From contig NZ_RKLO01000004.1 of the NCBI RefSeq assembly GCF_004011825.1, positions 1-64,000 on the forward strand: 64,000 nt of DNA. Direction: 5' to 3'. Under the pieces are notes generated by a model that made no database searches, had not been told where the DNA came from, and saw nothing but the letters and a program-made list of their open reading frames with translations. Made by a program: the position numbers and the translations under genes. Of the stretch, positions 23,428 through 55,934 are shown piece by piece (the stretch's first letter is position 1; every line of letters starts with the position of its first letter). The DNA is from Rhodococcus xishaensis. GTDB taxonomy: Bacteria; Actinomycetota; Actinomycetes; Mycobacteriales; Mycobacteriaceae.

Positions 23428-23429
23428 GG

Positions 23430-24512: not shown

Positions 24513-24715
24513 AGTGACACCCGACACCGACTTCGCACCGATTCCGTCCCGCGTGTCCCGCGTGTCGGCGCTACCCGGGTCAAAGATGCAGGTAGGCGGC
24601 CTGCCTCCGCCGTCGGCAAGGCGGCTGAGTGCACGGGACCGCACCTCGACAAACTATCGGCGAGGTGCGGTTCCCGTGAACACCATTCGTTCAGCCCTGA
24701 TCAGTGGATCGGGTT

Positions 24716-30754: not shown

Positions 30755-33700
30755 ATGGCCGCACGACCGGTTCGAGCGCCGGCCGGCCGGACGGTCCGGT
30801 GTCCTGGTGCTCGATCCGTTCTGCCAGTGCGGCAGGCGTGGGCTCCTCGAACAGTGCCCGGACACCGAGGTCGACACCGAGGGCCTCGTCGAGCCTGGCG
30901 ACTGCCCGTGTTGCGGAGAGCGAGTTTCCGCCGAGATCGAAGAAGCTGTCGTCCACCCCTACCCGGCCGACGCCCAGAACATCGGCGAAGACCTCCGTGA
31001 CGGCCTCCTCGATCGGGTCGGTGGGTGCCCGGAAGACCCGCGCCGGGGCGCCGAACTCGGGGTCGGGCAGTGCACGTCGATCGAGTTTGCCGACCGGAGT
31101 CAGCGGGACGCTGTCGAGCACCTCGATCGCCGCCGGCACCATGTAGTCCGGGAGCCGTCCGGTCAGGCGGGCGCGGAGTGCACCGACGTCGACCGTGCGC
31201 TGTGGCGCCGCCGCGACGTAGCTGACGAGCACGTTGTCGCCGCCCGGACCGCGGCGACCCAGCGTTGCGGCGAACCGGACATCGGGGTGCGCCGTGAGTA
31301 CGGCGTCGATCTCTCCGAGTTCGACGCGGAAACCGCGGATCTGGACCTGGAAGTCGCTGCGCCCACGGTATTCGAGGCCGCCGTCGCTGGTCCATACACC
31401 GACGTCGCCAGTGCGGTACATCCGTTCGCCGGGAGCCCCGAACGGATTCGCGACGAACCTGGTGGCCGTGAGCCCGGGCCGACGGTGGTATCCGCGAGCC
31501 AACCCGGGGCCCGCGATGTACACATCGCCGGCGACCTCGGACGGTACCGGCTGCAGGCGCGCGTCGAGCACCGTCTCCGCGACCCCCGGGATGGGCCCAC
31601 CCAGCGTCAGTCGTGGCCCGCCCGTGTATTCCTCGATGTTCACGACGATCGTGGTCTCGGTGGGGCCGTACACGTTGAGGACCCGGCACCGTGGCAGCCA
31701 GTCGGCAACGAGGTCGGGCTGCCAGGATTCGCCTCCGACGAGGATGCACTCGAGGTCGACGAGTCCTGCGGGATCGACCGACGCGAGCGCGGCCGGGGTG
31801 ATGAATGCGTGGGTCACCCGCTGCTTCCGCAGCACAGCAGTGAGTTCGGTGCCGCCGTAGACCGAGCGCGGCACGATCACCATCGTCGCCCCGACCGCGA
31901 AGCACAGCAGGTATTCGAGGACCGACACGTCGAAACTGGGGGATGAGAAGTGCAGCGTCCGTGCCTCGGAGGTCACGCCGCTGCGCTCGCGCTGGATGTC
32001 GGCGTAGTTCGCCAGACCGCGGTGGGTGGCGACGACCGCCTTGGGGCGTCCGGTGGAGCCGGAGGTGTAGATCAGGTAGGCGGGAGCTTCGATGCGGACC
32101 GGAGCCGTCCGGTCCGCGTCGGTCACCGGCGCCGATGATCGCGCCTCGTACCCGCGCGTGAACTCGGGGTCGTCGAGCACCAACCAGCGCACCCCGCCGG
32201 GCAGGCGGGACCGATGCATCCGCGTGGTGACGCCGATCTCGGCGCCGGAGTCGGCGAGCATGTTCGCGACCCGCTCGGCCGGATAGTCCGGGTCTACGGG
32301 CACGAAGGCCGCTCCGGTCCGGGCCACCGCCCAGACCGCGAGGACCGACTCGACCGATCGTGCAATTCCCAGCACCACGAACGAATCGGGACCGATCCCC
32401 AGCTCGATCAGATGACGCGCGAGCCGGTTGGATCGACCGTCGAGCTCGCGGTAGGTCACCTGCTGGACCCCGTCGATGAGGGCCGTGGCGTCCGGATCCC
32501 GGGCTGCCGCCACGTCGAAGATCGCAGCGAGGGTGCGCGGCTGCGATCCCGGACCCGAACGCACCGGGGCCAATTCGCGCCGCTCGGCCACGGTGAGCAG
32601 GTCGAGATCCGCGAGTCGGCGGTCGGGCTCGTCGGCGAACAGGTGCAGTACCCGGAACAATCGATCGGCGATGTCGGAGACCCGATCCTCGTCCACCTGG
32701 TCGGGCCGGAACTTCAACGTCACCCGCAATCGGTCGGGGGCGGACGCAACGACGGTCAGGGGGTAGTGCGCGGAGTCACGGGCCTCGATGTCGACGATCC
32801 GCAGGCCGCCGATATCGATGTCGGTTCCGTCCCCGCGCACCGGGTACGACTCGAAGACGGTCAGCGTGTCGAATGCGGTAGCCGGACCCGCCGCCCTTTG
32901 GATGTCCGGGAGTCCGACATGGTGGTAGTCGAGCAACGCCGACTGCTCGGCCTGGATTCGGTCGAGCAACTCACCGAGAGTCTCGTACGGGTCCAGCCGA
33001 ATCCGCACCGGCACGGTGTTGATGAACAGTCCGATGGCGGACTCGACGCCGGCGAGATGAGGTGGCCGGCCGGACACGGTAGACCCGAACACGACGTCCT
33101 CGCGGCCGGTCAGTATCCCGAGCACGATTCCCCAAGCAGCCTGGACGACCGTGCCCAGCGTGATGCCCCGGTCCCGGACCGCCGCGCGTAGCCGGTCACT
33201 CGTCTCGGCGTCGAGCTCACAACTCAGATCCCGGGATTCGGTGAATCGGGTCGGGCCCCCCGACCGCTCAGGCAGCAGCAACGTGGGGTCGTCGAGCCCG
33301 GAAACGGCCTGGGTCCACGCCCGGATCGCCTCCGACGAGTCCCGCCCGGCCAGCCACTCGAGGAACCTGCGGTACGAGCCCGACCCGGCAGGGACGGCCG
33401 ATTCACCGTCGGTGGCATAGACCGCGAACAACTCCTCGAGCAGCAGTGGCGTAGACCAGCCGTCGAACAGGATGTGGTGGTTGGTGATCACCAGCTCGTG
33501 CCGTCCATCGGGCATGTGCAGCAGCATGATTCGCAACAGTGGTGGCCGGGCGATGTCGAACGGGGTCGCGCGGTCGGCGTCGAGGAGTTCGGCGAGTCGA
33601 TCCTCCGCTGCCGATTCCCCGAGGGAGCCGAGGTCGAGTTCGGTCCACGGCACCTCGACCGCATCCTGCACCACCTGCAGGGCGTCGCCGCCTCGTCCAC

Positions 33701-36700
33701 GGACGAATGCGACGCGCAGGTTCGGATGCCGGTCGAGCACCGCGCGCACTGCCCACTCCATCCGAGGCACGTCGACGGTCCCGCGCAGCGTCAGGATCAG
33801 CTGCACCATGTAGGCGTCCGCCGCATCCTCCACTGCTGCAGACAGTTCCGCGTGGAACATCATGCCCCGCTGCATCGGAGAGAGCGGCCACACGTCGGAC
33901 AAGCCGGTGAATCGGTGCTCGAGTCCCTCGATAGTCTCCTGATCAAGCTCGACCAGGTTGAGATCGGACGGTGTCAGCCCGCCTGCTCCGGGGGTGGTCG
34001 CGTGTTCGACCAGGGCCCGCGCCGCTCGAATCCACCAATGCGTCAAGCGCTCCACCTCACCCGAGGTGAGGACTCCACGCGGGAAGTCCCATGTCGCGGC
34101 GATTCGCGGTCCGTCCGGACCGGCCACCGTCGCGGCGTTGACGTCGATCACCGACGTCACCGCCAGATCAGGCGTCACCACCCCGCGAAGTCCGGAATCT
34201 TCTACCGGCAGCCACGTTCCGCTCTCGCGATCCCTCGCAACGGTGTCGGTCCGACCGAGGTAATTGAAGCTGATCTCCGGCAGTGGCTGCGTGGACAGTT
34301 CGGGTCGGGTGTCGTCGTCGAGATAGCGGAGCAGACCGAACCCGATGCCGTGGTCAGGGATCGACCGCATCCGTTCCTTGACGGTCTTCACCACGGCGCC
34401 GGCCGGTGCGTCGGCTGCCATCGCGGCGTCGACGTCGATGTCCGACAGATCGAATCGCACGGGGAACAGCGATGTGAACCACCCGACGGTCCGGGACAGG
34501 TCAGCGCCGGGCACCACCTGCTCCTCCCGGCCGTGCCCCTCGGTCACGATCGACACGGCGTCGGCATCGGCACCGCGTTCGCGGCGCCACAGCGTGATCG
34601 CGAGGACGAGCGCGCTCAGCAGCCCGTCGTCGACGCCGCCGTGAAACGCTTGCGGGACCGCGGTCGTGAGCCCGCGAGTCACCTCACCCGGAAGTTCGAC
34701 GGTGACGCGGTCCGTGGTGGCTCCGACATCGACTCGCGGATCCAGTTCGCGCGCACCGAGGCACGGACCCGACGGCTCGAGCATCGCCCGCCACAACCCG
34801 AGTTCGGAGCGACGGTCCCGACCGGCGGCCGCGAGGGAGTTCGCCCAAGTCCGCATCGACGTGCCGACCGGTTCGAGCACCGGGTCCTCGCCGGCCGCGG
34901 CCTGCCCGCACGCGGAGGCCAAATCGGGGACGAGGACGCGCCATGACACCCCATCGACGGCGAGATGATGAATGACGACGAGCAGCCGTGCACCGTCTGG
35001 GCCGGCGAAGTACACGACCTGGATCACCTTGCCCGAGAACGGGTCCAATCGATCCGCAGCCGCTTCCAGCTCGCGTCGGGCGAGTTGGGTGAATTCGGAT
35101 CCCTGCACCGTCTCGACGGGGACCGACCGCACGACCTCCAACCCGTCGACCGTCCCGGGAGGTGAAACCGTGACGCGCCAGCCGTTACGGGAGCGGTCGT
35201 CGCGGCGCAGCGAGGCCCGGAGCATGTCGTGGTGGTCCAGCACCGCGGTCACTGCCCTTGACAGGACATCGGTGTCCAGGTCGATCGGCACGTCCAACAG
35301 GACCGATTGGGAGTATCGGCCGAAGTCTCCCGAACGCTCCGCGAGCCAGTTCACGATCGGGGTCGTCACAACATCGCCGACACCACCGCCGGGCAGTTCC
35401 GGCAGGGGCTCGTCGGCCCGCTCGATCCGCGCGACCTCGGCGAGTCGGGCGACGGTGCGGCGCTCGAACACCTCGCGCGGGGTGATCACCACACCGGCAG
35501 TCTTCGCGCGGGATACCAGCTGGATCGACATGATCGAGTCCCCGCCGAGTCCGAAGAACGAGTCGTCGGCGGCCACCGTCTCGACCCCGAGAACCTCACC
35601 GAACAGTGTGGCGAGGGTGCGTTCCAGGCCTGTCGCGGGACGTCGACCGGTCCCGCCGGCCACGCGCGGGTGCGGCAGGGCCGCACGGTCGATCTTTCCG
35701 TTCGGTGTCAGTGGGAACTCGTCGAGCACGGCGACTGCGGCCGGCACCATGTAGCTCGGTAGCTGCCCCGCAGCCTCGTCGATCACCGCGTCGGCCGCGA
35801 CGTCCGCCCCGGGCTCGGGAACGACGTAGCCGAACAGTCGGGTCGTACCCGTGGAGGCGCCCGAGCCGTCGGGGCGGGCGAGCACCAGTGCCGAGGCGAT
35901 GCCCGGCATCGAGGCCAGCACGGACTCGACCTCCCCGGGTTCGACCCGGAATCCGCGGACCTGTACCTGGAAATCCGTGCGTCCCAGGTACTCGAGTCCA
36001 CCGCTTGGCGTGAGCCGGACCCGGTCACCTGAGCGGTACATCCGCTGCGAGGGTGCGAACGGGTCGGCCACGAACCGGGTAGCGGTCAGGCCCGGCTGTC
36101 GCCGATAGCCCCGCGCCAGCTGGGGGCCGAACACGTACAGCTCGCCCGCGACGCCGACGGGCACCGGATGCAGGCGATCGTCGAGGACACGGACGCCGAT
36201 CCCGGGCAGTCCGGCCCCGATCGCCGACCCCGGAGTCGGAGAGGCAAGCACTTCCTCCGCGGTGATCCGATGCCATGTGACATGGACGCACGTCTCGGTG
36301 ATGCCGTACATGTTCACGAGCGCCGGGCGGTGGGTGCCGCGACGGTCCACCCAGCCGGCCAGTCGCGGGGCGTCGAGCGCCTCACCGCCGAACACCACCC
36401 AGCGGAGGTCGAGTGCGCCCTCCGTCTCGGGATCGGCATCGGCATCGGCGTCGGCGAGTTGGTAGAAGGCCGACGGGGTCTGGCTGAGCATCGTCACCGA
36501 CTCGGCCCGCAGCAGCTCCAGCATGTCCGACGGCGACCGTGCGGTGTGGTAGTCCACGACGACCACGCGACCCCCGAATCCGATGGCCCCCCACAACTCC
36601 CAGACAGCGAAGTCGAATGCGTACGAATGGAACATCGTCCACACGTCGCGCGCGCCGAAGCCGAGAACCTCGCACGCACCGGCGAGCAGTGTCCGCACGT

Positions 36701-39700
36701 TGCGGTGGGTCACCACGACCCCCTTGGGTCGCCCGGTCGATCCCGACGTGTAGATCAAGTAGGCGGGAGACTGCGGGCGCAGCGGACCGACGCGGTCGGC
36801 GTCGGTGACCGTCGACGCCGGCTGGGCGTCGATCCGTGCGCGGATGTCGGGCGCCTCGGTGCGGACGACCGGAACATCTTCCGGGAAGACCTCATCTGGA
36901 ACGGAATCGTCGGCGAGGACACACACCGCCCCGGCATCCTCGACGACGAACCGGATGCGGTCGGTCGGATACCCCGGGTCCACCGGGAGGTAGGCCGCGC
37001 CCGCGCGCACGATGCCCACGAGGGTGGCCGCCAGGTCGACGGTCCGGTCCATCGCGACGGCGACCACCGACTCGGGGCCGAGCCCACGCTGGATCAGCCA
37101 GCGCGCCAGCCGGTTCGATCGCTCGTCGAGCTCCTGGTAGGTGAGGCGTGTTTCACCGCAGGTGACCGCCACGGCGCCGGGTGTCGCGGCGGCAGCTGAG
37201 CCGAACAGGTCCGCCAACGTGCCGTCCTGCTCGGTCGGCTCGGGACCAGCCTCGGGGCGCTCCGCCAACTCGATGTCGCCGACGGCGACCGAGGAGTCGG
37301 CCGCGGCCGCGGTGAGCAGCCGAGACAGCATCGCGGCGAGACGGGCGACGGTGGTGTCATCGAACACGTCTGTCGCGAAGACGATCTCACCGTTCAACCC
37401 AGCCGGCGCCCCGTCGTCGGTCCGGCTCTCACCGATCCCGAACTGCAGGTCGAACTTCGCTTCCCGGGTGTCGATGTCGAGGCCTTCGACGGTCAGGCCG
37501 GGCAGGTGCCCCTGCGGCCGGTCGACGTTGCGGAACTCGAGGAGGACCTGGAACAGCGGGGCGAACGACGTGTTGCGGGCGGCACCGGTGCGCGCCACCA
37601 AGCGCTCGAACGGTAGATCCGAGTGGGCGAAGGCGTCGATGTCGCTCTCCCGTACGGCGTCGAGCACACTCGAGAACGAGGCCGCCGGATCGATGTCGGT
37701 CCGGAGCACGAGCGTGTTCACGAACATGCCGACGACGTCGTCCAGTTCGGCCTCCCCACGCCCGGCGACAGGCGTACCTACAACCACGTCACGGGTCCCA
37801 CCGACACGCGCAAGCAGTGCTGCCAGCCCGGCGTGCACCACCATGAAGAGCGTCGAATCATGTTGTTGTGCAATCTCGACCAGCGCTCGGTGCGCCTCCG
37901 CAGTAACCGCGAACGGAACCCGGCTACCGCGAGTGGTACGCCGGGCGCCCCGTGGACGATCCAGCGGTAGCGTCGTCACCGGCGGCGCACCCGACAGTCG
38001 GTCCAGCCAGTAGGACTCCTCCTGGACAAGATGCGAACTCGGATCGTCGGGGCTGCCCAGAATCTCCCGCTGCCACAGCGCGTAGTCGGCGTACTGCACC
38101 GGTAGCGGCGACCAGTCCGGTGCGCTGCCCGTCACGCGCGCCCGGTAGGCGGTCACGACATCACGCACGAGGGGCCCGATCGAGAACCCGTCGGCGGTGA
38201 TGTGATGGAGTACCAGCACCAGAACGTGCTCGTCGGGCTGAAGTCGCAGCACCTGTAGCCGTACCGGGACGCTTTGCGCCACATCGAATCCCGCGCCGAT
38301 CAGTTCCTCAACCCGGGCTTCGAGGCCACCGGGCTGCACCGACTCCGGCTCGAGGGCGCCCACCGCGTCCTCGGCTGCCACAACCATCTGGGTCGGCCCG
38401 GTCGGCGCCGACGGGTACACCGTCCGCAGCGACTCCTGCCGCCGCACCACGTCGATCAACGCCTCCCGCAACGCCGGCACGTCGAGGGTTCCCGACAACC
38501 GCAGCACCATCGGCACGTTGTAGGTGGCGGACTCGGGCTCGAACTGGTTCAGGAACCACATGCGTTCCTGCGCCCACGACAGCGGCACCCGATCCGGCCG
38601 GATGCCGGCACGCAGCCGTGGTGTGGACACCGTTCGCGTGTGATCGGCACGCGACGCGAGACGTCCTGCGGTTCCGCAGTCGAACAAGTCCCGGACGTCG
38701 AGGTCGGACCCGAGTGAACGGTTGATCCGCGCGACCGCCCGCGTCGCGCTGAGCGAGTTGCCACCGAGGTCGAAGAAGCTGTCATCGACCCCCACCCGTT
38801 CGACACCGGTGATGTCCGCGAAGACCGCCACTACCTCCTCCTCGGCGTGGGTCGTCGGGGCGCGGAACTGCGAGGTCGCGGAGGCGAGGTCGGGTGCCGG
38901 CAACCGGTCCCGATCGAACTTGCCGACCGGGGTGAGCGGGAGTTCGTCGAGGATCATGATCCTGTCGGGCAGCATGTAGCCAGGTAGTCTGCGAGCCGCG
39001 AAATCGGTCAGTTCGGCGTCCTCGACGCCACCGTCCGCCATCGGCACCACGTACGAGACGAGAAGCGAATCGCCCGCGTCACGCCGTCGCGCAACGGTGA
39101 TCGCATGCGCCACCGCTGGGTGCGCCACCAACGCCGCGTCGATCTCACCGAGTTCGATCCGGAAGCCGCGCACCTTCACCTGGAAGTCGCTGCGTCCCAG
39201 ATAGTCCAGCGCACCGTCGGACCGTCTGCGCACCACGTCACCGGTGCGGTACATGCGGTCGCCGGCCTTGCTGGAGGGGCACGCCACGAACCGTGCGGCG
39301 GTCAGCCCCGGCTGCCGGTGGTAGCCGCGGGCCATGCCCGCGCCCGCGATGTACAGCTCTCCCGGCACCCCCGGCGGAACGGGACGGAGCAACGGGTCGA
39401 GCACCACCAGTTCGGTACCCCTGACCGGGGTGCCGATCGGGGTGTCGGCGCCGGAAACCAGCTGCCCACTGATCGTCGACACCACGGTCGACTCCGTCGG
39501 GCCGTAGGCGTTCAGCATCGTACGACCCGGCGCCCACGCGGCGACGAGTTCGGGCCCGAGGATATCGCCCCCCACGACCAGGACCTCCAGCGCGTCGAGC
39601 GGCTCCGGTTCGACCGTCGCGAGCGCCGCGGGTGTGATGCAGACGTGCGTGATGCGCTTCCCGGCAAGCAGTTCGGCCAACGCCGGTCCCCCGTAGACGT

Positions 39701-42700
39701 CGGGGGGCGCCACCACGAGCGTCGCCCCGGCAGCAAGCGCAGGTAGCACCTCGAACAACGAGTAGTCGAAACTCGGAGTAAGGACGTGCAGGCATCGCGC
39801 CGAACTCGTGATCGGATACCGCTGCCGCTGATCGTCCAGCAGGCTCGCCAGCCCACGATGGGTGACGCTCACCCCCTTCGGCTGCCCCGTGGACCCTGAC
39901 GTGTAGATCAGGTAGGCAATGTCGTCCACGTGCACCGAACGGGCGCGGTCCCGGCCGGTGAGTGCCGTCGTCGGGATCGAGGCCTCCACGACGTCCCGAT
40001 CGTCGAGCACAAGCCAGTGCACCGTTTCTGGCAGGCCCTCGCGGGCCGCCGCGCAGGTGACGCCCACCGTCGCACCGGAGTCGCCGAGCATGTGCTCGAT
40101 CCGCGCCGCCGGGTACGAGGGGTCGATGGGGACGAACGCCGCGCCGGTCTTTGTGACCGCCCACACCGCCAGTACCGAGGCCGCCGATCGTGGCACTGCG
40201 CATGCCACGACGGTGCCGGGGCCAGCTCCCACGCCGATCAGCTGTCGCGCCAACCTGTTCGACCGTGCGTCGAGGTCGCGGTACGACAGCTGCGCGTCGG
40301 GGGCGTCGACGGCAATACCGGTGGGGTTCGCGGCGGCCCCCTCGTCGAGGATCTCCGCAAGCAGCCGCGGCGCAGACGGCTCCCCGCCGTCCACGATGAA
40401 CTCGGCGCGCTCACGTGTCGTCAGCAGGTCGATTTCGGCCACCGGCAACCCATGGTGGTGGCTCACGCGGTCCAGCGCCAGAAGCAGTCTCCGCCTGAGA
40501 GATTCGATCGTCGGGGCGTCGAACGCATCCGCTCGATACTTCAGCGTCAGGTGGAGGCGATCGGTCAGGCCGGCCAGCAGTGTCAGGGGGTAGTGCGTCG
40601 AGTCGAGCCCACGCACACCCGTCACCCGGAGCCCGGCAATGTCGGTGCCGCGTTCGAGCGCGGTCCGGTCGACCGGGTAGGACTCGAATACCGTCAGCGT
40701 GTCGAACACGGCACCGGCACCGGCCGCGTGCTGGATGTCGGCGAGCCCTGTGTGGTGGTGGTCGAGAAGCGTGGCCTGCTCGTGCTGCACACGGCGCAGC
40801 AGGTGCCCGAGAGTTTCCCGTGGATCCAGCCGCACCCGCACCGGCACGGTGTTGATGAACAGTCCGATCATCGACTCGATGCCTGAAACGTCGGGAGGCC
40901 GCCCCGACACCGTCGCGCCGAACACGACGTCCGTTCGTCCGGTGAAGACCGCGAGCACGAGGGCCCACGCCACCTGGACGACGGTGTTGGGCGTGACCCC
41001 GTGATCGCGGGCCACGCGCGTGAGCACCGCCGTCTCGGATTTGCTCAGCGCCAGTTCCACATCACGCGATTGTTCGTATTGCTCGTCCACGGCGGACGCG
41101 TCCGGTGCGGCGAGCAACGTCGGCTCGTCCGTTCCGGCGAGCGCCCGACCCCACGCCGCGATCGACGCGTCGCGGTCACGCCCCGCGAGCCACGCCAGGT
41201 AGTCGTGGTAGTCACCGGCGGGGGGAAGGGCGGCGGGATCTCGCACGGCGTAGAGCATCAGGAGCCGTTGCAGCAGAAGCGGTGTCGACCAGCCGTCCAG
41301 CAGGATGTGGTGGTGGGTCAGCACGAGCCGGTACGACCGGGGCCCCACGCACACGAGGGTGAACCGCAGCAGCGGTGGCCGGTCCATCGCGAACGGTGTC
41401 GCCCTGTCGTCGGCCATCAGGTTGCGCCACCGCCGCTCGCCGGTTTCCGCTCCGTCCCCGGACCGGTCGACCTCACGCAGGTCGACCTCGCGCCACGGCA
41501 CCGGCACGTCGGACTCGATCACCTGGACCGTCTCGCCGCCGACATCATCGACGAAGCAGGCTCGCAGGTTGGGATGCAGGTCGAGCAGTTTGCTGACGGC
41601 GGAGCGCAGTCGCGCGCGATCGGGTTCGCCTCGCAACTCCACGACGAGCTGAACCAGGTAGGCGTCGAGCGCATCCGACGCCAGATGCGCGTGGAACAGC
41701 AGACCCGCCTGCAGCGGCGTCGTCGGCCACACGTCGACCAATCCGGGCCATCCGGCCTCGAGAACGTCGATCGCGTGCTGGTCGAGACGGACGAGGTCCA
41801 GATCGGACGGGGTGAGCCCGCCGGCTTCCGGGGTGCGCGCGTACGCGGCGAGGCCGCGCAGCGCGTCCAGCCACAGGTCCGCGAGCCGCACGACGTCGGC
41901 GCGGTGGAGAACTCCCGGGGCGAACGACCAGGACGCCTCCAGGACCGCCCCGTCGGGGTTGGCCTGCACCCCGGCGGAGATGTCGACGGGTGCCGTCACA
42001 GGCATGTCGGGATCGTGTGCGCCGCCGAGGGCGCCTGACGACACCGGCATCCACGGAGACGATTCCGAACCGCCGTCAGCGGCGACGGCGAGGCGGCCGA
42101 GGTAGTTCAGCACGATCTGAGGTGCGCTCCGCAGCAGACGTCCCTCGCCGCCGAGTTCGGTGAGCAGTCCGTACCCGATGCCGTGGTCGGGGATCGCCCG
42201 CAGGTGTTCCTTGACGAGTTTGACGACGGTCCCCGCAGTCGGTCCGCCGGCGTAGGCGTCGTCGAGGTCGATCCGGGACAGGTCGGGCCGCACGGGATGG
42301 ATCGTGGTGAACCAGCCCACCGTTCGGCTCAGGTCGGCTCCGGGGACGACGCTGTCTTCGCGTCCGTGGCCTTCGAGCCCGATCATCGTGGCCCCGGGCA
42401 TCGTGTCTGTGTCACCGTCGCGCTCGGCGCGCCAGCGCGCCACCGCCATCGCGAGCGCCGCCACCACGACGTCGAGGGCGCCACCGTGGACCGCGGTGGG
42501 CAGGTCCGTCAGCAACGTCGCGGTGTCCGCGGCCGACGCGGCGACACGGACCTCCTCCGCGGTCGCGTGGATATCTCGTTCCGGGTCGAGTGCCCGTCGC
42601 CCGATCGGGGGTTCGTCCTCATCGACGATGCTCTGCCACAGCGGCAGCTCCTCGGTCCGCGCGTCGGCGACGTCGTGCAGGGCGTGCGCCCAACGCCGCA

Positions 42701-45700
42701 TCGAGGTGCCGACCGGATCGAGCTCGGGGATCCGCCCCTCGGCGGCCTGCGACCACGCGGACGCAAGGTCGGGCACGATGATCCGCCAGGACACCGCGTC
42801 GACAACCGTGTGGTGGGCAACGATCAGCAGCCGCCCGCTGTCATCGGGCCCGCGGAACCAAACGAACTGAACCATCCGCGCCGCGGCCGGATCCAACCGG
42901 TCCGCCGCCGCATCCAGTTCCTCCGCGACACGAGAGACCGCTGCGGCGTCGAACGCCGCCACGGCACACTGCGTGAGAGTTCCGTGAGCATCGACATCTC
43001 CCTCCGGGAGAACGTCCATCCGCCAACCGGATTCGTCATCGATGTCGTACCCGGATTCGTCACGGACCAGCCGTGCACGGAGCATGTCGTGCCGGTCCAG
43101 CACGGCCTGTATCGCGTCGACGAGGTCGCGTTCGCTCACGGCCACAGGCAGGTTCAGCTGCACCGCCTGGGAGAATCGGCCGATCTTCCGGCCGGCACGT
43201 CGCAACAGCCACGCCAGGATCGGGGTCGGCGGCACCTCCCCCACGCCACCACCGGTGAACTCCGGAAGCAGCTCTGCTGCCTCCGTGGTCGGGGTTGCGA
43301 CCGCCGCCAATGCGGCGACGGTGCGGTGATCGAACACTTGACGGGGCGTTACGGACAGCCCCGCCGCTTTCGCGCGCGCGACCAACTGGATCGACATGAT
43401 GCTGTCGCCACCGAGACCGAAGAAGGAGTCCTCCACACCGACCGTGTCCAGCCCCAGCACGTCCGCGAACACACCGGCGAGCGTCCGCTCGACGTCGGTG
43501 GCCGGAGCCCGTGCGGGCGAGACCTCGGCGGCGAAGTCCGGGTCCGGCAGCCTGTCACGATCGAGCTTGCCGTGCACGGTCATCGGGAGCTCGGAGAGCA
43601 CGGTGATATGGGATGGCACCATGTACGACGGCAGCCGAGCGGCCACGGCCTCGTGCAGGTCCGCGGTGTCGACGTCGGCGCCGGCCGCCGGAACGACGTA
43701 GGCGACCAACCGTTCCCCGATCCGGCCCACCCGACGGATGTCCGCGACGGCGATCCCGACGTCCGGGTGCTGCGCCAACACCGCCTCGATCTCACCGAGT
43801 TCGATCCGGTACCCGTGAAGCTTGATCTGCCGGTCGATACGGCCCAGGTACTCGAGGGTTCCGGTCGCGATCCACCTCACTCGATCGCCTGTGCGGTACA
43901 TGCGTCCGCCGGGTGCCGCGCTCGGATCGGCGACGAACCGTGACGCGGTGAGCGCGCGGCGCCGATGATAGCCGCGCGCCAGGGCGGGTCCGGCGAGGTA
44001 CAACTCGCCGGGGGAACCGACCGGCACGGGCTGCAGCCGCGCGTCGAGGACCAGCGCGTGGAACCCCGGGGCGGGGCCTCCGATCGAGATCGTCTTGCCC
44101 GGAGTCAGAGCCGAGCTCATGGTCCCTACGACCGTCGTCTCGGTCGGGCCGTAGGCATTGAGCATCTTCCGGCCGGGTGCCCAACGGTCGACGACATCGG
44201 TCGGCACCGACTCGCCACCGGAAATCACGCACTCGAGGTCATCCAGACCATCGGGGTCCGTAGCCGCCAACGCCGACGGTGTAATGAGGCAGTGCGTCAC
44301 ATGCTCGGACGTCAACAACTCGCGCAGCTGCTCGCCGCCGTACACGGTGGGCGGGACGATCACCAACGTCGCGCCCGCCCCGACCGCGAGCGCGAGTTCG
44401 AGGATCGAGGCATCGAAGCTCGGCGATGCAAGCTGCAGAACTCTCGACTCCGGCACGGTCCCGCACCGATCGTGCATGTGTCCGACGAAATCGGCGAGCC
44501 CGCGGTGCGTGACGGAGACCCCCTTGGGGACACCTGTGGAGCCCGAGGTGTAGATGAGGTAGGCGGTCTCGTCGAGGCGCAGCGGCACCGTTCTTTCGTC
44601 GTCCCGGATGGGACGGTCGGACACGTCTGTGGTGGAACGTCTCTCGCCGAGTACCCAGCAGGGAATCTCTTCGGCGAACACGTCGAGGAACGGTCTCGTG
44701 GTAAGTCCCAGGCAGGCCCCGGAGTCGCTCAGCATCAGCGAGATCCGATCGGCCGGGTGGGCCGGGTCCACCGGGACGAATGCCGCACCGGTCTTCGCAA
44801 CCGCCCACACCCCGGTGAGGTACTCGGGGCATCGGGCCATCCCCAACGCCACTACCGATCCCGGGCCGATGCCCGCGCCGATCATCTCGCGAGCCAACAC
44901 AGTCGAGGCCCGATCCAGTTCGCCGTAGGTCGTGTCGGCTCCCTCGTACCGGATCGCGGCTCGCGTCGGGTCCGATTCGGCGGCCATGGTGAGGAGGTCA
45001 ACCAGCGAGCACGGCTCGGTTCCCGGATCCCCGCGGACCGGGGTCAACGCGGAACGTTCTTCCGCACCCAGGAGCTCGATGTCCGTGACGAGCGTGTCGG
45101 GCGTTCTGGTGGCGGCCTGCAGGATACGCAAGAGACGGCCGGCAAGGCCGCGAACGGTTTCCGTTTCGAACATGTCGGTCGCGAAGACGAACCCAACGGA
45201 CATCCCCGCGGGGGTACCGTCGTCGGCGAACTCTTCGGCCACTCTCAGTTGCAGGTCGAAATTGGCGACCTCGTCCCCGGCGTCGAGTCTCTCGACTCGC
45301 AGGCCTGGCATCTCCAAACGCGCAGGCGCGAGGGTGCGGAACTCGAGCATCACCTGGAACAGCGGCGAATGTGCGGTCGAACGAGGTGGATCCACCGCCT
45401 CCACAACACGTTCGAAGGGAACCTCGGCGTGCATGAATGCACCCAGATCAGTGTCGCGCACCTGCTCGAGCAACTCGGTGAACGAGCAGTGACCGACGTC
45501 GCACCGCAGCACGAGGGTGTTGACGAACATGCCGACCATGTCGTCGAGTGCCGCAGAGCCGCGACCCGCGATGGGGGTGCCGACCGTGATGTCATCGCCG
45601 CCGCCTAGGCGGGACAGCAGCACCGCGAGCGCTGCGTGCATCACCATGAAGACGCTCACGCCCTGGCTGCGAGCCAGCGCGACGATCTGCTCGTGCAGGT

Positions 45701-48700
45701 CGAGTGGGATCTCGAACTCGACCCGATCGCCACGCTGCGTACGCACGTTCGGGCGCGGGTGATCGGACGGAAGGTCGAGGGCTTCCGGCACACCCGCGAG
45801 AGTCTTTGTCCAGTAGTCGAGTTGCCGCGCCAGGGGAGAATCCGGGTCGTCTGCATCGCCCAGCCAGGCCGCCTGCCACAGCGCGTAGTCCGCGTACTGG
45901 ACGGCGGATGCCGGCCATACCGGCGGCACTCCGTCCCGCCGGGCCACATAGGCGGCGGCGAGATCCCGCGCCAACGGGGCCAGCGAGAAGCCGTCGGCAA
46001 GGATGTGATGGAGCACCACCGTCAGTACGTGTTCCGTGTCGTTGATCCGGAACATCCTGGCACGCAACGGTATCCGTGCCGTGACATCGAATCCGACGGA
46101 AGTGACCTCGCGGACTCGGTGTCGTAGGTCGTTCTCGTCGTCGACCTGGACGATGTCGAGGGCCGCGTCCACCGATCCGACCGGCAGGATCTCCTGTCGC
46201 GGTCCGGCGTCATCGAGCGGGTAGACCGTCCGCAGCGATTCGTGCCGCGTGATGATGTCCGCCGCCGCGGCGCGCAGCGCGTCGACGTCGAGGTCCCCGG
46301 ACAACCGGACCGACATCGAGATGTTGTACGTCGGCGACGCAGTGTCGAACTGGTTGACGAACCAAATGCGCTGCTGGGCAGGCGAGAGCGGAATACGATC
46401 GGGGCGCTCGCGGGCGACCAGTGGGGGCCGCGCCGGCTCACCGGCATGGGCTGCGCGCCGCGCTAGCCCGGAGACCGTGGGGTCGTCGAACACGTCCCGG
46501 ACACCGAGCGCAACCCCGAGGGCATCACCGACCCTCGCCGCGAGCTGCGCTGCGACCAGGGAGTTGCCGCCGAGTGTGAAGAAGTCGTCGTCGGCACCGA
46601 CGAATTCCAAGCCGAGCAGATCGGAGACTTCCGCGGCCACCGTCTGCTCGATCGGGTCGCGGACGGGGACGGGCCGCCGATCAACTTCGTCAGGCGTCGG
46701 CAACTCGGTGAGGTCGACCTTGCCGTGAACCGTTGTCGGCAACCGGTCGAGGACCACTACCGCAGAGGGCACCATGTAGCTCGGTAGCAGCCGTGCCGCA
46801 GTCTCCTTCACGTCGACCGGATCAACCGCTCCGGCTTCGGGCACGACATACCCGAAGATTCTGGTGCCGACCGGCCCCTCGTCGGTGACGGCGACAGCGG
46901 ACCCCACCCCTGGCGTCGCAACCAGTGCAGACTCCACCTCGCCGAGTTCGACCCGGTACCCGCGTACCTGTACCTGGCGGTCGGCGCGGCCGAAGTAGCG
47001 GAGCGTGCCCTCCACAGTGAAGGTGCCCAGGTCCCCCGTTCGGTACATACGGGCACCCGGCTGGTACGGATCGGCCACGAAGCGCCCGGCCGTCAGGGCC
47101 GGTCGGTCGAGGTACCCACGCGACAACTGGATCCCCGCGACGTACAGCTCGCCCACCACGCCGGGCGGCACCGGGTGTAGCCGGGCGTCGAGAACCCGAA
47201 CGGCCAGCCCCGGCAGGGGGGTCCCGATCGAATCCGCCGGGGGGCGCGCGACAGCGTCCGGACGGAGCGGGTCGTAGGTGACGTGGACGCAAGTCTCGGT
47301 GATCCCGTACATGTTCGTCAGCAGTGGCAGGGGACCGGAGTGCCGCTCGAACCACCCGGACAGCCGCGCCGAGTCGAGCGACTCACCACCGAAGATCACC
47401 TGCCGCAGCGCCGGCACCCCGTCGCCGCTGGTCTCCTGCCGATCCGCTTCGTCCAGTTGACCGAACGCGCTGGGGGTCTGGCTCAGCACCGTCACCCTCT
47501 CGCGGTGCAACAGTCCCAGCAGGTCCCCGGGCGACCGCGCGGTGTCACGACCGACGACCACGACAGTGCCGCCGTGCAGGAGCGCACCCCACAACTCCCA
47601 CACCGCGAAGTCGAAGGCATACGAGTGGAACATCGTCCACACGTCGTCTTCGTCGAAACCGAACAGCGCTCGAGTGCGGTCCATCAGCGTCATGACGCTG
47701 CGGTGGGGCACGGCAACCCCTTTGGGACGGCCGGTCGAGCCAGACGTATAGATGACGTAGGCAGTCGAATCGGGACGCAGCGGTAGCCGCTCATGGTCGG
47801 CGACGGGGTCCGGCGACAGCCCGGCGACATCCGCTGCCACGGACGAGCTGTCCAGATCCACTACGGGGACATCGACCGCGACCGAGGCCAGCCGTGCCGC
47901 ACCAGCGGCGTCGGCGAGCACACACACTGGTGCCGCGTCGGCGAGCACGAACGAAATCCGCTCGTCGGGGTACTCCACGTCCACGGGAACGTAGGCAGCT
48001 CCCGACCCCACCACCGCAGCGAGCACCACCGGCAGATCCACCGACCGGGTCATCGCGACCGCGATCCGGCTCTCCGGTCCCACACCACGCCCGATCAGCC
48101 ACCGGGACAGACGATTCGAACGTTCCGCGAGGTCGCGGTAAGCGATACGTTCGGCACCGGCCACCACCGCGGTGGCGCCCGACCTCGCCGCGCACACTCG
48201 CGCGAGCCGATCCGGGAGGGTGTCCGCAATGCCGACCGGGTCCGCGCGCGTCTCGGACAGCGCGCGTTCCGACGCCTCGGTGACATCGATGTCCCCGACG
48301 ACGGCGTCCCCGTTGGCGGTAACCACGGCCAGGACCCGTCCGAACCGCTCGACGAATCGAGCGACCGTCTCCCGATCTAACAGGTCGGTGGCGAAGTGCA
48401 TCGCCGCCGACATGCCGGCCGGCTCACCCGCGTCGTCGACCCGCTCACGAAGGCTCAGCTGCAACTCGAACTTCGCGACCCCCGGATCAACTTCGCGTAC
48501 TGCGACATCGAGCCCGGGGAGTTCCAGCGTCGCCGCCTCGGTGTTCTGCAACTCGAGCAGCACCTGGACGAGTGGCGCGTGTGCGGGCGACCGTTCGGTC
48601 GCCAACTCCTCCACGAGCCGTTCGAACGGCAGATCGGCGTTGGCGAGCGCACCCAGGTCGACCTCCCGCACGTGCGCGAGGAGGCCGACGAACGACACCG

Positions 48701-51386
48701 CGGGATCGACGTCGGTACGCAGGACGAGGGTGTTGACGAACATGCCTACGAGGTCGTCGAGTTCCGGCGTCGTGCGACCGGCAACTGGCGTGCCGATCAC
48801 GACGTCTCGGCCGACTCCCAGCCTCGACAGCAGCGTGACGAAGGCGGCGTGCAGCACCATGAACAGCGTGCAGTCCCGCTCGCGCGCGAGCTCCACCAAC
48901 CTGCGGTGCACGTCCGGGCCGATGTCGAACTCGACCCTTTCGCCCGTCGGAGACATTACGGGCGGCCGAGGCCGGTCGAGGGGAAGTGCGATCACCGGAG
49001 GCAGGTCCTCCAGACGAGACGTCCAGTACCTGAGCTCGCGTGCGGTAGGCGTGTCCTCCGCCCCTGGCGTGTCCGTCTGCTCCGACGTGCCCATCGTGTC
49101 TTGTTGCCACAGTGCGTAGTCCGCGTACTGGAGCTGGAGGGGAGCCCAACCTGGAGCCTGACCCGACCGGCGCGCAGCGTAAGCCACCATGATGTCCCGC
49201 GCAAGGGGCACCATCGATTGACCGTCCGCGGCAATGTGGTGGGCGACCACGGCCAGTACATGCACGTCCGGACCCATCCGGAACAGTCGCACACGCAGCG
49301 GAAGATCCTCGCGGACATCGAATCCTGTCGACGCCGCAGACCGTACGGCATCCGAAAGCTCGTCCGGATCGACGGCGACGGGCGCGAGATCCGGCAGAGC
49401 CGACTCAGTTGCAACGATCACCTGTCGCGGTCCGAGCGTGTCGGATGGGAACACGGTACGCAGGGCCTCGTGCCGGTCGACGACGTCGGCGAGTGCCGCC
49501 CGGAGCGCATGGAGGTCCAGTTCGCCGGTGAGGCTGACCGTGAAGGAAATGTTGTAAACCGGGGAAGCCGTATCGAGTTGGTTGACGAACCACATACGCT
49601 GCTGCGCCGGCGAGAGCAGGATCCGGTCGGGGCGTTCGTGCGTGGTTGGCGGCACGAGAGGCGGCGGCGGGGATCCGCCGTCGACGAGCGAGGCCTCGAC
49701 GTGGCGCGCCAGGCTCCGCACAGTCGGGCTCTCGAACAGATCGCGCACGGTCAATGCCGTTGCCAGGGCCGCGTTCAACCGGGCGATCACCTTCGTGGCC
49801 ACCAGGGAATCCCCGCCCAGATCGAAGAAACTGTCCCACGGCTCGACGGTCCGCCCTGGGGCGAGTACGGTCACGAACGCGTCCGCGATCGCCATCTCGA
49901 CGGCGGAGTCCGGGCGCTCCTCTGCTGCGCCCGAAACGGATTCGATATCGGATTTGCCGATCGTCATCGCAGGTTCCGGGGCTGCGTGCAAAGCCGGCGG
50001 CGCCTCAGCGCCGCGCAAGTCACCGAGCGGCATGTTCGGGTCGGCGGTGACGAACTCCTCGAGCAGCTCGAGAAACAGCCGGTGGTAGGCCCCTTGCTCG
50101 TCCGCCTGATATCGAAACGGATTCGCGCGGAAGTCGACGAAAGTCTTCACCGGAGTACCGGATTGGTAGACATTGACCAGAAGGTCTTCCACGGGGCCGG
50201 AAGTCAGGATACAGAACTCCGTCTGCAGATCCCCCATCACGATCTCGGGATGGAAGAACATCACGTTGACGATCGGCGCGGCCAGTTCACTACCGACATC
50301 ACGCCGGATGTCCGCGCGGCTGCAACGTTGATGCCGCAGGGCCGCAAGGAGCTCGAGCTGGACCCGCTCGACCAGCGTACCGACGGTGTCGTCGTCACAG
50401 ACCTCGACCGCCAGCGGTAGGAGATTGACCGTCATGCCACCGGAGCGGCGCAGCACCGCGGTGGTGCGCGCCGAGACCGGGATGTTGACCAGCACATCCC
50501 GTCTCCCGGTCATCCGACCGAGATAGCACGCGAACGCGGCGACGATTCGTGCGGCCGCGGAAGCTCCGCCCCCGCCGGGTTCCTCATCACGCTCGAGCGC
50601 CTCAACGGTCTCGGCCGACAATACTCCACTCGCGAGCCGACTCTCCGCGACCGCGGGTGCCACCGAGCCCGCCAGCGTGATCCCGCTCAGCCCGGACAGC
50701 TTTTGCGACCAGTACTCCCGGTCCTCATCGTGACGTTTCGATCCCCGATAACGTTCATCGATTTCGAGGAGTGCACGCAGGTCCGCCGCCCGTGGTGGAT
50801 CCGGCTCTTGTCCTCGGACCGCCGCAGTGTACAGGTCGGCGATACGGTAGAGCATCGTCGCGGCACCGAACCCGTCGAGGGCGATGTGGTGACTTCTGCT
50901 GTACCAGAAGAAATGTCGATCACCGACCTGAAGGATCACAGTTTGGACGAGCCGGTCGACGGACAGGTCGATCGGGGTCGCGAAATCACGGTTCATCCAC
51001 TCGTGGGCAGCTGCCGACGGGTCGCGCTCGGCGCGTAGGTCCACGAGCGCAATCGAGGTGTCCCGCCCTGGATCCACGTACTGCAGAGGCTCATCGCCTG
51101 TCGTGATGACCCTCAGGAAAGGGGATTGGAATTCGCGGGCCGCGCGCACATTTGCGTCGCGGAGCAGGCCGATGTCGAGGGGGCCCTCTATGTCCACGTA
51201 CTGCGCGATGAACAGCGGGACGTCGGGCGCGAGTTGCTGCGCGAACCACAGTGCACGCTGCGCCTCAGACAACTGGAAGCGGGATCCGACCGAGCGCGAC
51301 TCCATCGAGGGCGATTCGGCCTCAGTCGATCCGGAACAGGCCGATCCGGTATTGGGCGATTCGGGCAAAGGGTCGGCGGAGTCCAT
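26838..51386 (-). CDS. Giant seven-module nonribosomal peptide synthetase
   Basis: The 8182-residue protein (about 0.9 MDa by length) assembles a peptide on seven carrier domains. Domain order is C-T, C-A-T, C-A-T-E, C-A-T, C-A-T-E, C-A-T, C-A-T-TE. All seven condensation domains keep HHxxxDG, all seven carriers keep LGG(D/N/T)S, and both epimerases keep HHxxxDxxSW. The thioesterase has GWSLGG near residue 8012 and a late DHNDM His, so product is released by hydrolysis or cyclisation. The condensation domains after the epimerases (modules 4 and 6, starting VWPxxPxQxG) are of the D-accepting type, consistent with D-residues at positions 3 and 5. ATG 51386 has GGGGGTG six bases before it. The first module lacks adenylation, so its carrier must be loaded by another protein or stay idle. 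The product is unknown. Confidence 0.95.
30755..33899 (-). other. NRPS module 6: C-A-T, unknown substrate
   Basis: A D-accepting type condensation domain ([23 protein letters not shown] near residue 5970), adenylation near 6440 and carrier [11 protein letters not shown] near 6819. The code reads D-V-L-F-L-G-V-I-V, apparently hydrophobic, with no confident match. Confidence 0.7.
33900..38599 (-). other. NRPS module 5: C-A-T-E, threonine-like code
   Basis: Condensation HHITADG near residue 4396, adenylation near 4882, carrier [11 protein letters not shown] near 5280, epimerase [11 protein letters not shown] near 5475. The code reads D-F-W-S-V-G-M-V-H, threonine-like; the adenylation domain shares long identical stretches with module 2. 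D-threonine or D-allo-threonine is expected. Confidence 0.75.
38600..41749 (-). other. NRPS module 4: C-A-T, unknown substrate
   Basis: A D-accepting type condensation domain ([24 protein letters not shown] near residue 3357), adenylation near 3832 and carrier [11 protein letters not shown] near 4209. The code reads D-Y-F-C-V-G-A-V-V, which I cannot match to a substrate. Confidence 0.7.
41750..46419 (-). other. NRPS module 3: C-A-T-E
   Basis: Condensation HHILADG near residue 1794, adenylation near 2280, carrier [11 protein letters not shown] near 2661, epimerase [11 protein letters not shown] near 2859. The code reads D-A-L-L-I-G-A-V-V, closest to aromatic (Tyr/Trp-type) codes from memory. 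The epimerase means a D-residue is passed on. Confidence 0.7.
46420..49639 (-). other. NRPS module 2: C-A-T, threonine-like code
   Basis: Condensation HHIAADG near residue 720, adenylation [10 protein letters not shown] near 1214, carrier [13 protein letters not shown] near 1607. Specificity residues by eye alignment to GrsA read D-F-W-S-I-G-M-V-H, one change from the threonine consensus DFWNIGMVH. No epimerase follows. Confidence 0.75.
49640..51386 (-). other. NRPS module 1: C-T, no adenylation domain
   Basis: A starter-like condensation domain ([20 protein letters not shown] near residue 166) is followed by a linker of about 60 Pro/Ala/Ser-rich residues. The carrier domain comes next, with [13 protein letters not shown] near residue 527. 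No adenylation core motif lies between. The condensation domain resembles that of the NRPS fragment at the left end of the window, where an adenylation domain does follow. Confidence 0.85.
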
Positions 51387-52809: not shown

Positions 52810-52885
52810 GACCGGAAACCTAGCCGACCCCACCGACAGAACAGGAGCAGCCGCATGTTGGACGCACAACCTGACCGCCCTCCCT

Positions 52886-52906
52886 CCCCACGGCTGAAGC
52901 CGGGGG
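52886..52906. repeat. Left-end hairpin of the tnpB element
   Basis: CCCCACGGC-TGAA-GCCGGGGG, the same as the right-end hairpin except for one base in the loop, in direct orientation. It ends only 18 bases before the TetR start codon. Confidence 0.75.
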
Positions 52907-52924
52907 CTTCCCGGGCGGTGCCCG

Positions 52925-53755: not shown

Positions 53756-53768
53756 GGCACTGAGTGCC
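53756..53768. promoter_or_regulatory. Operator-like palindrome GGCACT-G-AGTGCC
   Basis: Second copy of the 13-bp palindrome, 67 bases before the fadE25 start. A TACACT sequence at 53730-53735, between the two copies, could be the -10 element of the fadE25 promoter. Confidence 0.65.
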
Positions 53769-53835
53769 TAGAACTTGCTGTCATCAGACCGTTTGCAAAA
53801 CACTTGACCGTCGCGTACACCCGAGGAGCGTTTCC

Positions 53836-54993
53836 ATGGCCGGCAACCCCGATTTCCCCCTCTTCCAACTGAATGAGGAGCACGAAGAGCTGCGGGCCGC
53901 GATCCGCGCACTCTCGGAGAAGGAGATCGCGCCGCACGCGAAGGATGTCGACGAGCAGGCGCGGTTCCCCGAAGAGGCTCTGTCGGCACTCCTTGCATCG
54001 GGCTTCAACGCCATCCACGTGCCCGAGGCGTACGACGGCCAGGGCGCGGACTCGGTCGCCGCATGCATCGTGATCGAGGAAGTCGCTCGCGTGTGCGGTT
54101 CGTCCTCGCTCATCCCAGCCGTCAACAAGCTCGGGACGATGGGACTCATCCTCAACGGTTCCGAGGACTTGAAGAAGAAGGTGCTGCCCGAGATCGCCGG
54201 TGGCGCGATGGCGTCGTACGCGCTCTCCGAGCGCGAGGCCGGCTCCGACGCCGCGAGCATGCGCACCCGCGCGAAGGCCGACGGTGACGACTGGATCTTG
54301 AACGGTTCCAAGTGCTGGATCACCAACGGCGGCCGTTCCACTTGGTACACCGTCATGGCCGTGACCGACCCCGACAAGGGCGCCAACGGCATCTCCGCGT
54401 TCATGGTCCACAAGGACGACGAGGGCTTCATCGTCGGTCCGCTCGAGCACAAGCTCGGCATCAAGGGCTCCCCGACCGCCGAACTGTACTTCGAGAACTG
54501 CCGCATCCCGGGCGACCGCATCATCGGCGCGCCCGGCACCGGCTTCAAGACCGCCCTCGAGACCCTCGACCACACCCGCCCCACCATCGGTGCCCAGGCA
54601 CTCGGTCTTGCGCAGGGCGCGTTCGACGCGGCCGTCGCCTACACCAAGGACCGCAAGCAGTTCGGCAAGTCGATCGCCGAGTTCCAGAACACCCAGTTCA
54701 TGCTCGCCGACATGGCGATGAAGATCGAGTCGGCCCGCCTCATGGTCTACACGGCCGCAGCTCGCGCCGAGCGCGGCGAGAAGAACCTCGGCTTCATCTC
54801 CGCCGCTGCGAAGTGCCTGGCCTCGGACGTCGCGATGGAGGTCACAACCAACGCTGTCCAGCTGTTCGGCGGCGCCGGCTACACCACGGACTTCCCGGTG
54901 GAGCGCATGATGCGTGACGCCAAGATCACCCAGATCTACGAGGGCACCAACCAGATCCAGCGCGTAGTCATGTCGCGGGCGCTCCTGAAGTAA
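53836..54993 (+). CDS. fadE25: Acyl-CoA dehydrogenase FadE25
   Basis: The 385-residue flavoprotein carries the acyl-CoA dehydrogenase signatures ASYALSEREAGSDAASM and QLFGGAGYTTDFPVERMMRDAKI, with the catalytic Glu in QIYEGTNQIQRVV. Its wording is nearly that of mycobacterial FadE25 (Rv3274c), including the NPxFxLFxLxEEH start. It carries out the first oxidation of beta-oxidation. ATG 53836 has GAGGAG seven bases ahead. In M. tuberculosis fadE25 lies elsewhere; here it is followed by fadB2, so the two beta-oxidation steps may be co-expressed. Confidence 0.93.
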   Translation: MAGNPDFPLFQLNEEHEELRAAIRALSEKEIAPHAKDVDEQARFPEEALSALLASGFNAIHVPEAYDGQGADSVAACIVIEEVARVCGSSSLIPAVNKLGTMGLILNGSEDLKKKVLPEIAGGAMASYALSEREAGSDAASMRTRAKADGDDWILNGSKCWITNGGRSTWYTVMAVTDPDKGANGISAFMVHKDDEGFIVGPLEHKLGIKGSPTAELYFENCRIPGDRIIGAPGTGFKTALETLDHTRPTIGAQALGLAQGAFDAAVAYTKDRKQFGKSIAEFQNTQFMLADMAMKIESARLMVYTAAARAERGEKNLGFISAAAKCLASDVAMEVTTNAVQLFGGAGYTTDFPVERMMRDAKITQIYEGTNQIQRVVMSRALLK

Positions 54994-55085
54994 TCCTGCA
55001 CAGCAGTCCTGCTCGAGTAGAAATCTGACCAAAGACAGCACTTCGCCCGACAGGCGAGGTGAAGAGACGACAGTGGAGAATCACC

Positions 55086-55934
55086 GTGGAGCTAGTTGGC
55101 GTGATCGGTGGCGGCACGATGGGTGCCGGCATCGCTGAGGTGTGTGCCAAGGCCGGAAGCGACGTCCTGGTCCTCGAGACCACGCAGGAGTTCGCCGACG
55201 CCGCACAGGCGCGCATCGCTAATTCGATCGGCAAGGGCGTCGCCCGCGGCAAGATCACGCAGGAGGAGGCGGACGCCGCCGTCGCCCGTGTTCGCGTGAC
55301 CCTCGATATCAATGAGTTTGCCGACCGCGACCTGGTCATCGAGGCCGCTCCGGAGATCGAGGCGCTCAAGGCAGACATCTTCGGCCGGCTCGACAAGATC
55401 GTGAAGCCGTCCGGGATCCTGGCGACCAACACGTCGTCGATCCCGGTCATCAAGATCGCGAACGCGACCCAGCGTCCGTCGCAGGTCGTTGGTGTCCACT
55501 TCTTCAACCCGGTGCCGGTCATGCCGCTGGTGGAGATCGTGGTCAGCCTGGTCACGTCGGAGGAGACGGTCAAGGCCGTCACCGACTACGCGCGTGAGAC
55601 CCTCGGCAAGAAGGCCGTCCGTGCCGGCGACCGCGCCGGCTTCATTGTCAACGCGCTGCTCATCCCCTACCTGTGCGACGCGGTCCGGATGCTCGAGTCC
55701 GGGTATGCGACGGCCGAGGACATCGACGAGGCCATGAAGGGCGGGTGCGGCTACCCCATGGGGCCGTTGACGCTGCTCGACACCGTCGGCCTCGACGTCG
55801 CGCTCGCGGCCGCCGAGTCGCTGCACGCCGAGTTCGGTCAACCGCACTACTCGCCGCCGGCCCTGCTCCGCCGCAAGGTCGACGCCGGGCATCTCGGCCG
55901 CAAGACCGGCCAGGGCTTCTACAGCTACAAGTAG
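55086..55934 (+). CDS. fadB2: 3-hydroxybutyryl-CoA dehydrogenase FadB2
   Basis: The 282-residue protein starts with the NAD-binding motif GVIGGGTMGAGIAEV and carries the family signature VGVHFFNPVPVMPLVEIV (near residue 135), with PMGPLTLLDTVGLDV in the C-terminal domain. It oxidises 3-hydroxyacyl-CoA with NAD(P). GTG 55086 has GGAG seven bases upstream. The gene follows fadE25 by about 90 bases. A methyltransferase of the mycolic acid type lies next, as near fadB2 (Rv0468) in mycobacteria. A perfect terminator hairpin follows. Confidence 0.93.
   Translation: MELVGVIGGGTMGAGIAEVCAKAGSDVLVLETTQEFADAAQARIANSIGKGVARGKITQEEADAAVARVRVTLDINEFADRDLVIEAAPEIEALKADIFGRLDKIVKPSGILATNTSSIPVIKIANATQRPSQVVGVHFFNPVPVMPLVEIVVSLVTSEETVKAVTDYARETLGKKAVRAGDRAGFIVNALLIPYLCDAVRMLESGYATAEDIDEAMKGGCGYPMGPLTLLDTVGLDVALAAAESLHAEFGQPHYSPPALLRRKVDAGHLGRKTGQGFYSYK

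Follow-up and report, generated by a model that had tools for sequence, protein, structure and literature searches.

In Rhodococcus xishaensis the first module of a giant NRPS lacks an adenylation (A) domain: a starter condensation domain (C1) is followed directly by a carrier domain (T1). This A-less first module is real and not an assembly error. It would, on balance, be supplied by the reused A domain of another module, most simply one of the same synthetase. The gene is located in the window, i.e., the whole stretch of 64,000 nucleotides that was analyzed. Domain searches assigned to its product of 8,182 aa seven carriers, six A domains, two epimerization (E) domains and a C-terminal thioesterase, the latter found in a scan of the R. 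xishaensis protein only (Table 1).

Table 1. Positions of the NRPS gene, its domains and neighboring genes (window positions unless a locus is named).
Feature	Position	Strand	Remarks
Whole NRPS gene	26838..51386	-	8,182 aa; C1-T1, CAT, CATE, CAT, CATE, CAT, CAT-TE
C1, starter condensation domain	50052..51281	-	residues 36-445; putative acyl-CoA user
C1 catalytic motif HHIALDG	50871..50891	-	residues 166-172
C1-T1 linker	49914..50051	-	46 residues; site of halfC-A1 in orthologs; nearly unconstrained
T1 carrier	49695..49913	-	residues 492-564; without own A domain
C2, condensation domain	48327..49625	-	LCL group (label presumed); motif HHIAADG intact
A2	46698..48218	-	code DFWSIGMVH, presumably Thr-like
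A3	43542..45017	-	code DALLIGAVV
E1, epimerization domain	41901..43211	-	module 3
E2, epimerization domain	34065..35357	-	module 5
A7	27885..29366	-	code DAFFVAAIM; proposed T1 supplier
C-terminal stretch with thioesterase domain	26841..27632	-
Acyl-CoA dehydrogenase gene	53764..54993	+	conserved divergent neighbor, synteny marker
3-hydroxyacyl-CoA dehydrogenase gene	55059..55934	+	second synteny marker
Acyl-CoA synthetase genes downstream of the NRPS gene in other genomes	L043:1183-2997, L046:17221-18828, L047:1257-2858, L053:1240-2838

The original prediction that C1 is followed by a carrier with no A domain in between was confirmed by the Pfam order at the start of the NRPS, namely Condensation (window 50250-51275), PP-binding, Condensation and AMP-binding, and by the same start in relatives. 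The motifs of both domains had been described as intact, and this applies to the HHIALDG motif of C1 as well as to the phosphopantetheine site of T1 (LGGDSL, residues 523-528), beside which there is no A domain; the motifs of C1, T1 and C2 are kept in all 12 full-length copies compared. The linker is short and rich in Pro/Ala as predicted, 15 of its 46 residues being Pro or Ala.

In the comparison with homologous NRPS genes of relatives the A-less start recurs. The genus, i.e., Prescottella (Rhodococcus equi group) with close Rhodococcus species, was covered by 14 genomes including that of R. xishaensis, and in 12 of the 13 other genomes (13 of 14 with its own) a single frame matches C1 together with T1. 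The exception, G011, only has C1-like matches in other NRPSs, and one of the copies (G003) sits in a broken frame of 1,088 aa. The nearest relative is R. spongiicola with 90-91% over C1-T1. The 12 full-length copies have the domain order in common, comprising the same 22 domains by profile; the motif layout covered 11 of them, R. xishaensis included (the patterns failed to pick up a few motifs), the profile layout added G005, and G003 was left out. NRPS genes assemble badly and the R. xishaensis genome has NRPS fragments on small contigs, which would favor an assembly artefact, but the junction is identical in 12 of the 13 other genomes, including the single-contig genomes G006 and G008. Misassembly, which the original prediction had to reckon with, is excluded by the one-frame C1-T1 in these 12 genomes, and an artefact has a practically negligible probability.

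The origin of the A-less start can be traced by its genomic neighborhood. In another genus, g23, six positional orthologs carry C1-halfC-A1, in which halfC denotes a condensation domain reduced to its C-terminal half. They adjoin the same two neighbor genes, the acyl-CoA dehydrogenase (84-89% identity) and the 3-hydroxyacyl-CoA dehydrogenase (81-83%), both of which adjoin the A-less NRPS gene in 11 of 11 genus genomes compared. Seven g23 NRPS loci were tested; both neighbors are present at six and absent at one (G176). Five of the six orthologs were read onward from A1 into T1, three of them in full (G035, G229, G117) and two through T1 and C2, while G194 was read only into A1. The rest of the domain order in the fully read orthologs is the same as in the 8,182-aa NRPS, and the C1 of the latter groups with the C1 of the g23 orthologs (0.984). 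The eight A1-bearing genes that were measured have 770-815 residues between C1 and T1, compared to 42-59 residues in the 12 A1-less genes. Since the syntenic orthologs keep halfC-A1, about 2.2 kb coding for this stretch were deleted, and its loss in the Prescottella lineage (about 735 residues net) is strongly supported. In R. xishaensis a TnpB-family gene (window 51658-53007, minus strand) lies between the NRPS gene and the acyl-CoA dehydrogenase gene, and the spacing of about 2.4 kb compared to about 1.1 kb in R. spongiicola fits an insertion of this gene. Elsewhere in the window (22381-24644, minus strand) a LigD-type primase-polymerase gene adjoins an ATP-dependent DNA ligase gene, likely forming an end-joining pair.

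The R. xishaensis genome itself encodes a paralog on contig C12, an NRPS of 8,960 aa that differs in layout only at module 1, which is C1-halfC-A1-T1, and the layout of this paralog is also present in five NRPSs read from other genera. A humimycin-type paralog was found in 12 of the 13 genomes having the A-less gene and was not seen in G003. The C domains of the humimycin-type NRPSs of the genus are 53-57% identical to C1. The original prediction had instead pointed to an NRPS fragment at the left end of the window (C-A, positions 1-2773, minus strand, cut by the contig end) as related. Its C domain is indeed followed by an A domain, but with 42% identity to C1 it is not the nearest relative. 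Of 34 related loci, 32 have a halfC that begins at model position 182-190, with none at L028 and a weak match at L096; the halfC-bearing locus of the own contig C12 is L031:3654-4370. In literature titles and abstract openings no description of a halfC between a starter C and A1 was found.

Moreover, three g21 genomes (G033, G090, G074; loci L124, L133, L135) encode NRPSs that start with C1-halfC-A1-T1 and share 71-72% identity with the 8,182-aa NRPS in the last module. Their bodies group with Prescottella G009 inside the otherwise A1-less group in four segments (0.996-1.0), one of which holds only G033 of the three genomes. Their C1 groups with a paralog of their own genus (0.971), and the two dehydrogenase neighbors are absent from the flanks read. 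These NRPSs are apparent chimeras with a break inside T1, as judged by eye from the alignment. Either the A1 front was regained by an A1-less body, or the G009 body came from g21. Because the chimeras carry an A1 front, the same kind of T1-C2 body seems to be served with and without an A1 in cis, an argument that is weakened by the possibility that G009 received its body from g21.

After the loss the remaining first unit was maintained. Among the seven C domains, compared over 11 copies, C1 shows the highest mean pairwise identity (0.766; others 0.668-0.754) and the lowest pN/pS (0.291; others 0.325-0.443). T1 is the least conserved carrier (0.689; others 0.753-0.835) and has the highest pN/pS of the carriers (0.455; other six 0.182-0.339), and the linker has a pN/pS of 0.805, which is close to neutral. 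C1, T1 and C2 are under purifying selection, and due to these identity and pN/pS values C1 and T1 are regarded as kept, T1 less tightly than the carriers with their own A domain. The weaker conservation of T1 might indicate that C1-T1 is a remnant, so that residue 2 would be acylated by C1 directly on T2 or synthesis would begin at module 2, T1 and C2 being skipped. This is quite unlikely, as C1 is the most conserved C domain and the motifs of T1 and C2 remain intact in every full-length copy.

What T1 carries depends on the two condensation domains flanking it. The best matches of C1 among solved structures are RzmA-Cs entries such as 7c1k (4.9e-56), followed by ObiF1 and then by CDA entries. 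C1 groups with starter C domains of the humimycin-type clade and has an intact HHxxxDG motif; it is classified by these comparisons as a starter C domain and putatively uses acyl-CoA. C2 groups with ordinary elongation domains, which we take to be the LCL group, and not with starter domains; T1 should therefore carry an aminoacyl (or peptidyl) donor. C1 itself is changed at 11 positions that are at least 90% conserved in 41 other starter C domains (among these four duplicates, and one, L027, in which A1 was not seen). This corresponds to 11 of 177 conserved positions compared to 5 of 163 and 3 of 155 in control clades (Fisher p 0.05), and the stem branch of C1 is longer than in the control clades. 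Accelerated change of C1 is only borderline by the count, next to the longer stem branch. S165, A176 and L322 are present in 12 of 12 A1-less genes, where the 41 others mostly have I (38), M (39) and V (38), respectively. In the sequence alignment, position 165 (I to S) corresponds to Y138 of the RzmA acyl pocket and position 322 (V to L) to T289 near the acceptor. For RzmA it is reported that exchange of Y138 to alanine, together with R148G, lengthens the accepted acyl chain and that T289 is near the acceptor side chain (PMC7804268). The pocket changes in C1 are a lead only, because their count is borderline against the control clades.

These changes, including those at 165 and 322 that presumably lie at the acyl pocket and the acceptor, would fit a different use of the first unit, in which C1 would transfer a fatty acyl group from acyl-CoA directly to the thiol of T1 and C2 would couple it with residue 2, resulting in an acyl-hexapeptide with no amino acid on T1. 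No missing enzyme would be needed, and an acyl-CoA synthetase gene is found just downstream in 4 of 11 genomes, which suits ordinary lipid initiation too. However, C2 is not of the starter type, the changes in C1 do not clearly exceed those in the controls, and the stem branch is longer. We know of no starter C domain shown to acylate a carrier thiol. An acyl-hexapeptide made in this way is unlikely, and it is equally doubtful that the starter C was retuned after the loss of A1, making C1-T1 an acyl-CoA-fed lipid-loading unit without fatty acyl-AMP ligase or amino acid.

The acyl-CoA synthetase genes emerged from a survey of the flanks in 11 genomes. It covered 584 ORFs, reaching in ten genomes about 7-11 kb upstream and 3 kb downstream and further in R. 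xishaensis, and gave four A-profile matches at 1e-5, in G001, G006, G008 and G009. All four represent one protein (91-96% alike) encoded just downstream on the opposite strand, and acyl-CoA synthetase models lead by far for both of the two proteins scanned. An amino-acid A domain was rejected for this AMP-binding ORF by the family search; the enzyme could make acyl-CoA for C1 in those four species. The flanks of the other seven genomes, R. xishaensis included, gave no match to it, and in the window there are no AMP-binding matches outside the NRPS gene and the left-end fragment.

We consider it rather probable that the A domain of another module is reused to charge T1, the simplest candidate being A7 of the same protein, acting in cis or on a second molecule. 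C1 would then join a fatty acyl group from acyl-CoA to the amino acid on T1, C2 would pass the acyl-aminoacyl group to module 2, and the product would remain an acylated heptapeptide. A borrowed A domain is probable because the rest of the first unit is kept intact across nearly the whole genus. The original prediction had named a separate adenylation enzyme or the A domain of another NRPS; an A domain of the same synthetase, which we rate as the likeliest source, was absent from it. The A7 code differs at one position from DAFFVGAIM in A1 of the three fully read orthologs (codes taken at presumed positions), and of the six A domains in the 8,182-aa NRPS, A7 is the one most similar to the ortholog A1 (0.61-0.63). 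Alternatives to A7 would be A3 or A1 of the humimycin-type paralog. A1 of the C12 paralog and A1 of G033, the one g21 genome read for this, have the code DALFVGAVV, to which that of A3 is similar. Against A7 and A3, the C12 A1 is nearest to A6 (0.58) and not to A7 or A3 (0.56 each). Charging by A7 is also weakened by the low conservation of T1 and by the code positions being presumed ones. Convergence of T1 on another carrier was sought by comparison with T2 (0.44), T3 (0.43), T4 (0.49), T5 (0.46), T6 (0.54) and T7 (0.46), and no drift towards T7 or the others was found. T1 itself gives no pointer to A7, as it is not notably like any sister carrier.

Trans-acting A enzymes exist, and a dedicated stand-alone enzyme encoded elsewhere in the genome might charge T1 instead. 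Two own-genome matches above the NRPS A-domain cut-off lie in ORFs without a condensation match, a 1,383-aa frame on contig C19 and P0002, a stand-alone A-T protein whose N-terminal part was not recognized. P0002 was searched in 61 genomes, three of them from other Prescottella members that have C1-T1 (G004, G005, G007); as no full-length match turned up in these three, it was rejected as a general T1 supplier. Its gene is moreover surrounded by fatty-acid-type genes, which also speaks against this role. It is located on contig C12 (L101:3633-14578) beside FabH-like, olefin beta-lactone synthetase-like, OleD-like and MMPL genes, and relatives with 52-53% are found in two g21 genomes. A dedicated enzyme is improbable, and between the loss and the split module considered in the original prediction the former stands by the A1 retained in the syntenic orthologs, whereas for the latter no separate A gene among the candidates covered is supported so far.

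Beyond the genus, a profile of the C end and carrier was searched in 298 genomes of the order with at most nine candidates scored per genome. Among the matches listed, a near-full match of 238 positions was found only in the R. xishaensis genome and no other genome of the genus appears; at least five matches cover the carrier and part of the adjoining C end. Across the family, 301 genomes were searched (about four candidates scored per genome), and the C1+T1 matches among those listed are all in the Prescottella genus. Seven further loci were read, four of which have A-less C-T stretches by motif, located internally or C-terminally and none at the gene start (L115, L116, L118, L119; one is a tandem C-T-C-T). 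Literature titles and abstract openings, with most subscription journals outside the search, contain no description that we found of an A-less first module in these NRPSs, and a term search of the accessible part of PMC11433410 gave no match on it.

A-less modules served by another A domain and trans-loading are known already. New is a lipopeptide starter module that was made A-less by deletion and kept through nearly the whole genus. It represents a natural deletion experiment, in which one synthetase occurs at one locus either with or without its first A domain, and makes it possible to test the reach of an A domain towards foreign carriers. Furthermore, a peptide prediction based on the A domains would arrive at six residues although the product probably has seven, a miscount that bears on the way humimycin was discovered, namely from sequence to a synthetic peptide.

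As a summary of its relation to known systems, the 8,182-aa NRPS is by its domain architecture assigned to the humimycin-type seven-module lipopeptide synthetases, with which it shares the starter C, seven carriers, E domains in modules 3 and 5 and the remaining domain order. It differs in having six instead of seven A domains, lacking halfC-A1 of module 1, and due to the absence of a complete first module (halfC-A1-T1) it is a derived variant rather than a typical member. As reference, the gene for humimycin A is reported to be iupU of R. equi, and the C12 paralog is inferred to be its ortholog from architecture, not from comparison with the IupU sequence. Humimycin A is Tyr-Ser-dTyr-Phe-dThr-Val-Val as predicted from the R. 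equi NRPS (PMC12024397, PMC5550956). The E domains in modules 3 and 5 fit its D residues 3 and 5, and the C12 codes, read at presumed positions, are identical at positions 1 and 3, where these residues are the same save chirality. The RzmA initiation module has an A domain, and its acceptor is on the PCP of the same initiation module. The starter C of RzmA (rhizomide), the best solved match of C1, uses acyl-CoA (PMC7804268). Finally, CmnI and VioI of the capreomycin and viomycin synthetases likewise have a carrier without an A domain of its own in a working line, and CmnI is loaded by CmnA-A1, the A domain of another module (PMC12400406). CmnI is module 3 and is loaded across proteins, whereas T1 stands at the start of a lipopeptide line and would be loaded in the manner proposed here.
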